A DNA stretch of 64,000 nt from Frigoribacterium sp. PvP032 (GTDB taxonomy: Bacteria > Actinomycetota > Actinomycetes > Actinomycetales > Microbacteriaceae). The translations under genes were made by a program, and so were the position numbers. Location of the stretch: assembly GCF_017833035.1 (NCBI RefSeq), contig NZ_JAFIBM010000001.1:1736001-1800000 (forward strand), written 5' to 3'. How positions within the stretch are numbered: position 1 is the stretch's first letter; each line of letters begins with the position of its first letter. Below are positions 9,078-58,299 of this stretch, piece by piece. Below the pieces are notes generated by a model, which saw only the letters and a list, made by a program, of their open reading frames with translations, made no database searches and was not told the DNA's origin.

Positions 9078-9176
9078 CGTCCGGTGCTCCGCCCCCGCCG
9101 CACTCGGGTACCGTAGGGGGATGCTGTGCGCGCCACCGTGTGCGCAGCCTGAAGATCTGAACAGTGGAGGCCCTCA

Positions 9177-14140: not shown

Positions 14141-15010
14141 CTAGCTCGGCAGCGACCAGCCCTCGTCGGCCGATCCCGTGACCAGCCCGTCACGGAGGAG
14201 GCCGGCGAGGGCTCTGTCGCGCTGCTCGGCGTCGGGCCACACGCGGGCGACCTCGTCGCTCGTGACGGGCACGTCACTGGCCCGCAGCTCGGCCATGACC
14301 AGGCCGCGCACCTGACGGTCCGAGCCGGCGAAGGCGGCCTGACGACGCAGGGGAGGCCCCGCGTGCTCGGGGCGCCCGGCCAGCACCCACGCGCACTGCG
14401 CGACCAGCGGGCACTCGTCGCAGCGTGGCGACCGCGCCGTGCAGACGAGCGCGCCGAGCTCCATCACCGCGGCGCTGGCCACCCTGGCGTCGTCGACGTC
14501 GGCCGGGAGCTGCGACTCCATCGCCGGCAGGTCGCGGCGCGCCTTCGGCGCCCAGGGCTCGGCCAGGCCCTCGACCGCTCGAGCGAGCACCCGGCGCACG
14601 TTCGTGTCGACGACCGGGTGCCGGTGCCCGTAGGCGAAGACCGCGACCGCCCGTGCCGTGTAGTCGCCGACACCCGGCAGGGCCAGCAGCTCCGGGACGG
14701 TCTCGGGCACGACGCCGCCGTGCCGCTCGGTGATGACGACGGAGGCGGCGTGCAGGGCGAGCGCCCGGCGTGGGTACCCGAGGCGGTCCCACGCGCGCAC
14801 CGCCTCCGAGGCCGGCGACGCGGCGAGGTCGGAGGGCGTCGGCCAGCGCTCGAGCCACTGCTCGAGCCGTGGCACGACGCGCACGACCGGCGTCTGCTGC
14901 AGCATCACCTCGCTGACGAGGGTGCCCCAGGCGGTGAAGCCGGGGCGGCGCCACGGCAGGTCTCGCCCGTGCTCGCGGAACCACGACGAGACGGCGGGGG
15001 CGATGGTCAC
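14141..15010 (-). CDS. mutY: A/G-specific adenine DNA glycosylase MutY
   Basis: The 289-residue repair enzyme removes adenine mispaired with 8-oxoguanine. Visible parts are SEVMLQQTPV with catalytic Glu34, the helix-hairpin-helix LPGVGDYTARA, catalytic Asp135 in VVDTNVRR, and an iron-sulfur cluster loop with the C-x6-C-x2-C-x5-C spacing. The C-terminal 8-oxoG-recognition domain is short, as in many actinobacterial MutY proteins. GTG 15010 is the start because TAGGAT lies 6 bases upstream on the minus strand, indicating a leaderless message. It is divergent from the P-loop gene at 15067. Confidence 0.93.
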   Translation of the reverse strand: MTIAPAVSSWFREHGRDLPWRRPGFTAWGTLVSEVMLQQTPVVRVVPRLEQWLERWPTPSDLAASPASEAVRAWDRLGYPRRALALHAASVVITERHGGVVPETVPELLALPGVGDYTARAVAVFAYGHRHPVVDTNVRRVLARAVEGLAEPWAPKARRDLPAMESQLPADVDDARVASAAVMELGALVCTARSPRCDECPLVAQCAWVLAGRPEHAGPPLRRQAAFAGSDRQVRGLVMAELRASDVPVTSDEVARVWPDAEQRDRALAGLLRDGLVTGSADEGWSLPS

Positions 15011-15016
15011 CGGACC

Positions 15017-15022
15017 ATCCTA
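15017..15022 (-). promoter_or_regulatory. Leaderless promoter -10 box TAGGAT of mutY
   Basis: On the minus strand TAGGAT is followed by 6 bases and GTG 15010. It is divergent to the box at 15055-15060, so two leaderless promoters lie within 57 bases. Confidence 0.7.
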
Positions 15023-15054
15023 CGGGCGCTCGGACCGCTGTCGGCGGCCCGGCC

Positions 15055-15060
15055 TAGGGT
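15055..15060 (+). promoter_or_regulatory. Leaderless promoter -10 box TAGGGT of the P-loop gene
   Basis: TAGGGT, 6 bases, then ATG 15067, with no ribosome site. Confidence 0.7.
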
Positions 15061-15066
15061 GACCGC

Positions 15067-15630
15067 ATGACCACTCGTTGGGCCCCCGCCAAGAAAGACA
15101 CGCTGCGCGCTCTCGCGACCGAGATCCTGCACAACTACTCGAGGGGCCGGGCGTTCGTCGCCGTCGACGGCCCGTCCGGCGCCGGGCAGTCGGCCTTCGC
15201 CGACGACCTCGCGGCTGCCCTCGTCGAGGCCGGCCACGCGGCCTTCCGCGCCTCGGTCTCCGACTTCGGCAGGCCCCGCGGCGAAGGAGGCGCGGGGGCG
15301 GACGGCGAGCCTGCCCCGGTCGACGGGGCCGTCCTGCGCCGCGTCCTCGTCGAGCCGTTCAGGCTCGGCGGCAGCACCGCGTGGGTGCCGGCCGCGTTCG
15401 ACGCCGCCTCGCAGCGCGAGGTCGAGCCGCGGTGGGTCACCGGCCCCGACGACGCCCTGCTCGTGGTCGACGGCGAGGCGCTCGGCCGCCCCGAGCTCGT
15501 CGGCCTCTGGAACTACACGGTCTGGGTCACGCCGGGCGGCGGTCGCGGCGGCCTGCGCGCGGTCGCGACGGCGGTCGTCGACGTCTCCGACCCCGAGCAC
15601 CCGCGTCGGGTCTTCGACGACGCGTGCTGA
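15067..15630 (+). CDS. Uridine-kinase-like P-loop protein with altered Walker A lysine
   Basis: The 187-residue protein resembles small nucleoside/uridine-kinase-like ATPases: a basic N-terminal helix (RALATEILHNYSRGRAFVAVDG) leads to a P-loop. The loop reads GPSGAGQS at residues 35-42, so the lysine that holds the phosphates is glutamine. A DFGRPR segment follows where such kinases have DDFY-type acceptor residues, and a Walker-B-like LLVVDGEAL comes near 138-146. It probably lacks normal kinase activity and may be a nucleotide-sensing or regulatory remnant. The leaderless ATG has TAGGGT 6 bases upstream. Function unknown. Confidence 0.65.
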   Translation: MTTRWAPAKKDTLRALATEILHNYSRGRAFVAVDGPSGAGQSAFADDLAAALVEAGHAAFRASVSDFGRPRGEGGAGADGEPAPVDGAVLRRVLVEPFRLGGSTAWVPAAFDAASQREVEPRWVTGPDDALLVVDGEALGRPELVGLWNYTVWVTPGGGRGGLRAVATAVVDVSDPEHPRRVFDDAC

Positions 15631-56020: not shown

Positions 56021-56839
56021 TCAAGGTCGCGCCGGGAGGGGACGACGCAGGGCGTCGAGCCGGGCCTGCCACGCGGCGAGCCGCCCCGGCTGCTCGGCCG
56101 GGGAGGGGCCGTCGACCCAGCCGGAGACGATCCGCACGCCGTGCAGGGCGCTGAGCGACCAGATCTCGGCGCCGTCGAGCTCGGCCGGTGTCGTCCGGTC
56201 GTGCAGCACGTCGACGCCCAGCACGGCGGCGAGGGTCAGCACGGTGCGTGACGTCACCCCCGGCAGGCGGGGCAGGTCGTCGGCGGGCGTGCAGAGCGAG
56301 TCGCCGCGCCACCACACCAGGGAGCTCCAGGCCCCCTCGACGACGTGGCCCTCGGGGGAGAGGATCACCGCCTCCTCGGCTCCGTGCGCGGCGGCCTCCG
56401 AGCGCAGGTCGCCGAGGGCGGCCAGGTCCGGGCCCTTCACGAACGGCGAGGTGCGGGGGTCGCGGGTCGCGGTCGCCACCCTCACCGACCTCGTCCGGTC
56501 GGGAGCGGTCCGCAGCCGTGCGCGCAGCTCCGGCGTCGTCGTCGCGTCGGGGCGGACCAGCTCGACCCGCGGGAACCAGGCGCCGTCCCGGGGCAGGCGG
56601 CCGACGACCGCGTCCCAGAAAGAGGCAACGTCGTCGTCGGCCACGAGTCCCGTCGCCGCGACGGAGGTCGTGAAGCGGTCGCGGTGCACGTCCAGGGCGC
56701 GGACCGCGCCGTCGAGCACGAGCCACGAGTCGGCCACGAGCACGTCGGAGGGCGACGCGACAGGCGCTGCGGCCCGCGGCGTGCCCCGCGACGCCGAGAG
56801 GGCGCCGTCGCGCCACAGGAGGGTCTCGCCGGGGCTCAT
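56021..56839 (-). CDS. pabC: Aminodeoxychorismate lyase (class IV aminotransferase fold)
   Basis: The 272-residue PLP enzyme releases pyruvate from 4-amino-4-deoxychorismate to give p-aminobenzoate for folate. PLP-binding Lys is in [12 protein letters not shown], followed by [25 protein letters not shown] (the E-G-x-x-S-N-type block, with Ser-Leu) and [12 protein letters not shown], all in family order. Its gene is divergent from pabB, its pathway partner. ATG 56839 is leaderless, with TACCCT 6 bases upstream on the minus strand. Confidence 0.85.
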
Positions 56840-56851
56840 ACACTCAGGGTA
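56839..56851. promoter_or_regulatory. Interlocked divergent leaderless promoters of pabC and pabB
   Basis: The plus-strand -10 TACACT (56839-56844) is 6 bases before ATG 56851 of pabB. The minus-strand -10 TACCCT (56851-56846) is 6 bases before ATG 56839 of pabC. Each -10 contains the first base of the other gene's start codon, so the two polymerases would use the same 13 bases. Confidence 0.75.
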
Positions 56852-58299
56852 TGCGTCTCCCGGTCCACCGTCGTCCGCTCCCGTGGCGCGACCCGGAGGC
56901 CGTGGTGCTCGCCCTCGCGGGCACGGGCGACGTGGCCTGGACCGACGCGGGGCCCGGTGCCACGTCCGGTCGATCGGTCGTCGCCTGGGGCCCGGCGCTC
57001 ACGGCGACGGGCCCCCACCCCCTCGCCGCCGCGTGGACCGAGCTCCGGGCCGTCCTCGCTCATCCGCGACCCGACGCCGACCCGCTCGGGCCGACCGGGT
57101 GGCTCGGCTACGGCGTCGGGACCTGGCTGCTCGACCGGGACGCGACCGTCGGCGAGGGTCGGGGGGCGCCTCCCTCGGTCACGACCGGGCTCGTGCCCGA
57201 CCACGACGGCCCGGCCGACCTCGCGCTGCTGCTCACCGACCGGGCCCTGGTCTTCGACCACGGCCGGCGCACGGTGGAGGCGGTCGTCCTGGGCGACGAC
57301 CGGTGGCTGTCGGACGTCGCGGCGGCCTGGGTCGACGTGCCCGAGGGCGACCCCGAGCCCGACCCCGAGCCCCACCTCGGGCCCTCGCCCGGGTCGACGG
57401 CCGCGCCGCGCCGGGCCCGCCGCCAGCACGACGACGCCGCCTACCTGACGCTGGTCGAGCGCTGTCAGCAGGCCATCACCACGGGCGACGCCTACGTCCT
57501 CTGCCTCACCACGACGACCACCGTCGAGGGCGACGTGGACGACCTGGCCGTCTGGCGGAGGCTGCGCCGGTCCTCGCCGGCCCCGCACGCCTCCTTCGTG
57601 CGGATCGGCCCGACCTCGGTGCTCGGGGCGTCTCCCGAGTCGTTCCTCCTCGTCGACACGGGAGGGACGGTGTCGTCGTCCCCGATCAAGGGGACCAGGC
57701 CGCGGTCCGCGGACCCGACGCTCGACGACCGCGCCGTCGCCGAGCTCCGCGCCGACGAGAAGGAGCTCGCCGAGAACCTGATGATCGTCGACCTCGTGCG
57801 CAACGACCTCACCCGTGTGGCCGTCCCCGGCACGGTCGCCGTGACCGAGCTGTTCGCCGTGCGGTCGTACCGCCACGTGCACCAGCTGGTCAGCACCGTG
57901 ACGGCGGTCCTGGCACCGGGCCGCACGGCGCTCGACGCCGTGGAGACGACGTTCCCGGCCGGGTCGATGACCGGCGCGCCGAAGCGCAGGGCCGTGCAGC
58001 TGCTCGCGGCGTGGGAGGGGCGACCGCGCGGCGTGTACGCCGGGGCGGTGGGGCACCTCGGCCTGGACGGATCCGCCTCGCTCGCCATGGCGATCCGGTC
58101 GATCGTCGTCGAGCAGGCCACGCCGCGACGGCCCGGCCGCGCGAGCGTCGGAGCCGGGGGAGGGATCACGGCATCGTCGGTGCCGTCCGTCGAGCTCGAG
58201 GAGGTGCGACTCAAGGCGGCCGCCCTGCTGCGCGCCCTCGAGGCGGTCCCGGAGGGCGCCTCCTCGGCCCCCGCCGTGTCGACGCGGTCCGTGCCCTGA
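56851..58299 (+). CDS. pabB: Aminodeoxychorismate synthase component I
   Basis: The 482-residue chorismate-using enzyme aminates chorismate together with a glutamine amidotransferase subunit (not in the window). Conserved blocks are PLP-independent chorismate-site motifs: [33 protein letters not shown] and [16 protein letters not shown] (the last lining the active site). PIKGT and the pairing with pabC favour pabB over trpE. An N-terminal half without clear motifs fits the regulatory/dimer region. ATG 56851 is leaderless. Confidence 0.87.

Follow-up and report, generated by a model that had tools for sequence, protein, structure and literature searches.

The window analysed here is a 64,000-nucleotide stretch of the genome of Frigoribacterium sp. 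PvP032, and it carries two divergent genes whose start codons almost touch. The gene on the forward strand (56851-58299, 482 amino acids) encodes a pabB-like, chorismate-binding enzyme (PF00425, E = 4.4e-79). The gene on the reverse strand (56021-56839, 272 amino acids) encodes a pabC-like, class IV PLP enzyme (PF01063, E = 9.5e-26). As a pair for PABA synthesis, both proteins passed the broader Pfam cut-offs and both stayed below the NCBIfam cut-offs. The pabB-like protein scored 290.5 bits against TIGR00553 (cut-off 328.4), PabB being its best model, and the best NCBIfam model of the pabC-like protein, aminodeoxychorismate lyase, gave 43.4 bits, far below its cut-off of 273. Thus the pabB-like product is likely component I of aminodeoxychorismate synthase, the pabC-like product is likely aminodeoxychorismate lyase, a name that leans partly on the neighbouring gene, and both genes probably belong to the folate pathway. 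The nearest named records of PabB were Frigoribacterium proteins with 82-86% identity; the contig search otherwise returned mostly far homologues. In addition, the assigned start codons fit the homology, and the three closest congeners (loci L003-L005) align from residue 1 in both genes.

The two start codons lie within a 17-bp site, CATACACTCAGGGTATG (56837-56853, both strands), which we describe as an interlocked double promoter and double start codon on the basis of its sequence, its uniqueness in the genome and its conservation. The ATG of pabB begins at 56851 (+) and that of pabC at 56839 (-), and 11 bp (56840-56850) separate them, just as the earlier note had placed them. On each strand a TANNNT hexamer is followed by exactly 6 bases and then by ATG (TANNNT-N6-ATG). 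The predicted -10 boxes, supported by the sequence and by column conservation, are TACACT for pabB (56839-56844, +) and TACCCT for pabC (56851-56846, -). From the 6-base spacing and the spacing peak described below, leaderless transcription is predicted to start at the A of each ATG, at 56851 (+) for pabB and at 56839 (-) for pabC. The first base of the pabB box is the complement of the start A of pabC (56839), and the first base of the pabC box is the complement of the start A of pabB (56851). The note was therefore right that each -10 box runs into the start codon of the other gene, but only this one base is shared on each side. The two hexamers do not overlap each other, and 1 bp (56845) lies between them. 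The first T of each -10 box is the pairing partner of the A at which the opposite gene would be initiated, so that the four intergenic positions 56840, 56844, 56846 and 56850, together with the two ATGs, hold both signals. That no room remains for a regulator was an overstatement, since either coding end could hold a binding site for one.

No Shine-Dalgarno sequence at a usable distance was found by eye in the 25 bases upstream of either start. The sole Shine-Dalgarno-like element upstream of the two starts is an AGGG one base before the pabB ATG, which is too close for a Shine-Dalgarno site. A sigma-70 scan of 501 bases gave 0 matches. Furthermore, no clear -35 element was seen across 27 genera: the best match to TTGACA reached 2.1 of 6 positions on the pabB side versus 2.4 in shuffles, and 2.6 of 6 on the pabC side, slightly above the 2.4 of the shuffles and with no clear enrichment.

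Spacing of leaderless-type starts in the window and the genome

The pattern CATANNNTNANNNTATG occurred once in the window and in none of 100 shuffles. It also occurred once in the whole 3.33-Mb genome, where 0.054 copies would be expected from the base composition of the window and 0.005 from a first-order Markov model of the window. The shuffles, the single genomic copy and the low expectation together rule out a chance origin. In the same genome there was no other interlock with a gap of 12 and none of the form CAYTANNNTANNNTARTG.

We also counted TANNNT-Nk-ATG arrangements that open frames of at least 100 codons in the window, with k from 0 to 20. There were 5 at k = 6, 3 at k = 7 and 1 at k = 8, and 0 at the other 18 spacings; the pabB/pabC pair itself supplies two of the five cases at k = 6. 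Relative to expectation, TANNNT-N6-ATG was found 6 times versus 0.74 (the pair again being two of the six), and TANNNT-N7-ATG 3 times versus 0.64. For GTG starts there was no significant excess in the window (5 versus 2.78 expected, a count matched by 17 of 100 shuffles), and their spacings were scattered. The ATG peak at k = 6-8 thus suggests that leaderless initiation is in use in the window, at least at ATG codons. Both genes of the pair have TANNNT 6 bases before the start, inside the range of 6-8 bases where this arrangement exceeds chance.

Conservation and variation at pabC/pabB in Microbacteriaceae

We examined 94 Microbacteriaceae loci from 61 genera. For 54 of the 60 genomes drawn from the family, the sequences were fetched before the family pattern counts were known. 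The 40 further loci were hand-picked among the strongest matches listed, with the pattern hits in view; 22 of them represent genera new to the sample, and the other 18 came from genera that it already contained. A divergent pabC precedes pabB at 73 of the 94 loci (44 genera); the other 21 had no pabC in the stretch examined and stand outside the 73. The counts likewise exclude L136-L142, which come from other families of the order; pabC was found at two of these seven loci.

The interlock, defined by a gap of 11 or 12 and both -10 boxes, was found in 42 of the 73 divergent pairs and in 27 of the 44 genera, which are not independent samples because orthologous loci share ancestry. For this count all alignments were pooled, and both frames were checked against pabC and pabB by BLASTP. 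Thirty of the 42 pairs have gap 11 and 12 have gap 12, in which both -10-to-ATG spacings become 7. The earlier set and the hand-picked set gave 23 of 39 and 19 of 34 divergent pairs, respectively. When the boxes were not required, 45 pairs had gap 11 or 12. The pattern was present in every one of the 42 in-frame ATG/ATG pairs among them and absent from the remaining 3, which have GTG on one or both sides. Thus the conservation is not an artefact of the pattern chosen.

The columns of the gap-11 form, compared in 21 genera with one locus each, fall into two kinds. The signature columns 4, 8, 10 and 14 are invariant, and columns 5, 6, 7, 9, 12 and 13 vary (1.0-1.6 bits). Conservation in relatives had been proposed as a check in the earlier note, and it was borne out: the -10 signatures are fixed at the recurring interlocks, and most of the intervening bases vary. 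In addition, column 11 (position 56847 of the window) is G in 20 of the 21 genera, although the plain TANNNT model does not require it. Therefore the fifth base of the pabC -10 box is nearly always C (TANNCT). The pabB -10 box has no such strong preference in these 21 genera.

The in-frame interlock is absent from 31 of the 73 divergent pairs. A quick pabC tree of 73 rows implies at least nine changes to or from the interlocked state; 30 of its 70 inner branches are weakly supported, and the very long branch of L207 possibly reflects a disturbed frame. Thus the interlock is either old with several losses, or recurrent. At seven loci (L021, L129, L180, L189, L198, L201 and L210) the two boxes are replaced by one symmetrical -10 (TACGCTA, TAGGCTA or TAGACTA). 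The candidate in-frame starts of these loci are separated by 17-21 bp, close to the known 18-bp form of E. coli bidirectional promoters. Further genera have spaced promoters at pabC/pabB.

The genus of the window itself is divided. Among its 16 genomes, 8 have the in-frame interlock, 1 (L006) has separate promoters, and 7 (L011-L016 and L020) retain a gap-12 interlock with the pabC start shifted 20 nt inside (34 nt in L012). The old pabC start in these 7 genomes opens a 7-codon frame that ends in an ATGA, where the TGA stop runs into the following ATG. Locus L205, from another genus, has the same arrangement on the pabC side, with a 5-codon frame and an ATGA overlap. The ATG of the ATGA is the pabC start at 7 of these 8 loci; in L012, as read by eye, a second such frame precedes pabC. 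"Coupled" small ORFs on leaderless transcripts are described for mycobacteria in the accessible text of PMC4633059, and they share with the eight shifted loci a leaderless-type short frame and the ATGA overlap. They differ from the window's genome, where pabC itself is the predicted leaderless frame. The ATGA overlap gives modest support only, because an out-of-frame start has a roughly even chance of such an overlap, and the possible coupling can have arisen independently no more than three times (in the 7-genome subclade, in the additional frame of L012, and in L205).

The same interlock between other genes

The 17-bp pattern was present in 169 of 398 genomes of the family, compared with 26 of 398 for a reversed control. 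In a sample of the phylum it was present in 82 of 296 genomes, compared with 79 for the reversed control; both control counts were made by eye from tables. There is thus an excess in Microbacteriaceae and none in the phylum sample as a whole, and a spread over the phylum was rejected on this ground. Beside the window's own locus, 28 of 29 phylum loci were read, and none had frames of at least 40 codons on both sides.

The copies read in the family were 28 of 30 loci from the family scan and all 19 new loci, which were chosen for repeated or GC-rich cases. Several of them lie between two genes. The interlock separates uracil phosphoribosyltransferase (upp) from a deaminase gene, which we take to be tadA, at L213 by Pfam and at L214 and L221 by like sequences. 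It lies between a DUF255 thioredoxin-like gene and a metallo-beta-lactamase-fold gene at L215 by Pfam and at L217 and L218 by like sequences; the frames at L167 are similar in size to this pair. Furthermore, it was found between DUF255 and PPK2 (L220), between NhaA and a zf-UBP zinc finger (L216), and between an alpha/beta hydrolase and a possible DUF3052 protein whose match was below the cut-off (L219). At L143 it lies between an M24 peptidase and a 61-amino-acid protein with a SPOR match below the cut-off, and L144-L146 have the same frame lengths. A pathway-specific device is therefore ruled out, since functionally unrelated gene pairs carry the same interlock. The window's own genome has a leaderless-type start at upp, as read by eye, and no 17-bp interlock between upp and the deaminase gene.

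Many lone copies of the pattern in the family are flanked by a long frame on just one side. The idea that such copies are generally coupled micro-ORFs was rejected, since just 3 of 26 short frames fitted it. At L147, L152 and L154, short leaderless-type frames follow the interlock copy and overlap longer frames by RTGA.

Proposed working of the site and its alternatives

The site combines features of two known systems. The bidirectional promoters of E. coli and Salmonella described by Grainger and colleagues are, in the accessible text of PMC12825309 and PMC10268837, likewise small, symmetrical, divergent and -10-driven sites with exclusive binding, and some of them lie between divergent genes that are often functionally linked, as at pabC/pabB. 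Their start sites are mostly 18 bp apart, with 10 and 23 also common, and the authors allow small deviations (PMC12825309). At pabC/pabB the predicted starts are 12 apart (13 in the gap-12 form), and the hexamers abut and are unshared, whereas those promoters have a shared -10 region. In addition, the pabC and pabB mRNAs are predicted to start at ATG, and the available passages of both accounts are silent on leaderless mRNAs.

The other system is the leaderless gene of actinobacteria. The accessible parts of the literature predict about one fifth of actinobacterial genes to be leaderless (PMC3160421), and report for M. tuberculosis that TANNNT boxes lack a conserved -35 partner and that roughly a quarter of the genes with a primary start have leaderless transcripts (PMC3898074). 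A figure legend of the same paper states that closely juxtaposed divergent promoters are common in this species. For M. smegmatis, the available text of PMC6448022 reports that cofactor-biosynthesis genes are enriched among leaderless transcripts and that leaderless genes are expressed at lower levels than canonical Shine-Dalgarno genes. Like these genes, pabC and pabB have TANNNT about 12 bp upstream, no conserved -35, and ATG at the predicted +1 (PMC3160421, PMC3898074, PMC4633059, PMC6448022). Unlike pabC and pabB, no two genes in the accessible parts of these four papers are described as sharing promoter or start-codon bases. We see the pabC/pabB site as a compact form, conserved over deep divergence, of two known arrangements, the bidirectional promoter and the actinobacterial leaderless gene. 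The earlier note had known of no described case this compact. Divergent starts 10 bp apart are common according to the available text of PMC12825309, but in the accessible open-licence literature we found no description of a leaderless gene pair whose start codons are separated by 11-12 bp. Our literature search returned no start-site mapping or transcript data for Microbacteriaceae, which is not proof of their absence.

In our judgement the site is probably a bidirectional, -10-only promoter that yields two leaderless mRNAs and low, near-independent co-expression of both genes, and that is kept partly through its shared bases. RNA polymerase with the main sigma factor would bind the 17 bp in either orientation and melt a 14-bp stretch that is almost identical in the two cases, roughly 56840-56853 for pabB and 56837-56850 for pabC. 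The RNA would begin with the start-codon A of whichever gene the polymerase faces. Each gene would be transcribed at a low and roughly independent rate, so that both enzymes would be co-expressed. Against this reading, transcripts may also arise further upstream inside either gene. Only one orientation could be occupied at a time, because the predicted starts are 12 bp apart; at low activity this would hardly reduce the output. As an illustration with assumed figures, one initiation per minute and an occupancy of three seconds would block the site for about 5% of the time. The site could be smaller than the E. coli bidirectional promoters because both genes are predicted to be leaderless. The design would be kept, at least partly, because neither gene would escape the effect of an indel in the gap, or of a mutation at 56839 or at 56851.

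The closest competitor to this reading accepts the same anatomy and differs only on why the site is retained. Two leaderless genes may have been packed maximally by drift, and the sharing would then be functionless and hard to escape. We give this somewhat less than an even chance. Other gene pairs arrive at the same geometry, related genera have other geometries at the same locus (the symmetrical TANNNTA with starts 17-21 bp apart, and spaced promoters), and the state changed at least nine times on the quick tree. Against drift, the interlock persists in 27 genera over deep divergence, with most of the intervening bases replaced; such deep retention shows that two promoters are under constraint, but not that their sharing is. 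It is unlikely that only one of the leaderless promoters is real, with the other gene served from an upstream start and the second -10 a by-product of symmetry. The pabC start lies off the interlock at the eight loci with shifted starts, and the lone copies with one long frame also speak for such an arrangement. However, both -10 signatures are equally invariant in the 21 genera, which indirectly favours RNA synthesis in both directions, and the eight exceptions retain the reverse -10 and an ATG at the predicted +1, where it opens the short ATGA-ended frame. A chance resemblance around canonical Shine-Dalgarno starts is very improbable: the AGGG before the pabB ATG would favour it, but its position, the conservation of the site and the genome-wide rarity of the pattern argue against it.

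The earlier note had proposed mutual exclusion between two enzymes of one pathway, in which a polymerase on one promoter blocks the other and the enzymes are made alternately or inversely. The geometry does forbid double occupancy by polymerase, so that this part of the claim holds, whereas exclusion as regulation found no support. In the accessible text of PMC12825309, an E. coli bidirectional promoter that is strongly activated in one direction can be repressed in the other, and competition then appears. However, the basal activity of all five E. coli promoters tested was too low for polymerase competition, and loss of one direction had little effect on the other; these published steric data concern promoters of another geometry than pabC/pabB. 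In addition, nothing obvious would be gained by alternating two enzymes of the same pathway, and binding would last seconds, with the proteins living far longer. No strong -35 was found that could favour one direction, unrelated gene pairs share the architecture, and 31 of the 73 divergent pairs do without the in-frame interlock. The site is probably not a switch between the two enzymes, and we regard alternating production as improbable.

To return to the bidirectional promoter with two leaderless mRNAs, a broader reading is that CATANNNT(N1-2)ANNNTATG is a module of Microbacteriaceae, 17-18 bp long, in which two -10 boxes, two start sites and two start codons occupy the same bases and one bubble is used in both directions. 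Such a module would tie both genes to one short site, and in this way set their ratio and limit noise without a regulator. The pattern is widespread at pabC/pabB and also occurs at the upp/deaminase, M24 peptidase/short protein, DUF255/metallo-hydrolase, DUF255/PPK2 and nhaA/zf-UBP pairs. We put this reading forward only tentatively and consider it doubtful as a whole. The pabC/pabB locus provides a natural series at one place, from the 11- or 12-bp interlock to the single symmetrical -10, the spaced promoters and the possible coupled micro-ORF. This series lends itself to asking if gene ratio and noise depend on polymerase binding being exclusive. Furthermore, the site illustrates how compact a two-gene promoter can become in a GC-rich bacterium, and it offers a simple motif with which to locate divergent leaderless pairs in Microbacteriaceae and to check start codons there.

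Two other sites in the window deserve mention. The stretch 9101-9123 resembles an 18-bp bidirectional promoter: a symmetrical TACCGTA has a GTG (-) on one side and an ATG (+) on the other, both at leaderless spacing. No listed frame of at least 60 codons starts from either codon, however. At 14980-15090 there is a divergent leaderless-type pair with separate, non-interlocked TANNNT boxes. It consists of an HhH-GPD (MutY/EndoIII-like) gene starting with GTG at 15010 (-) and an ORF without a Pfam match starting with ATG at 15067 (+).
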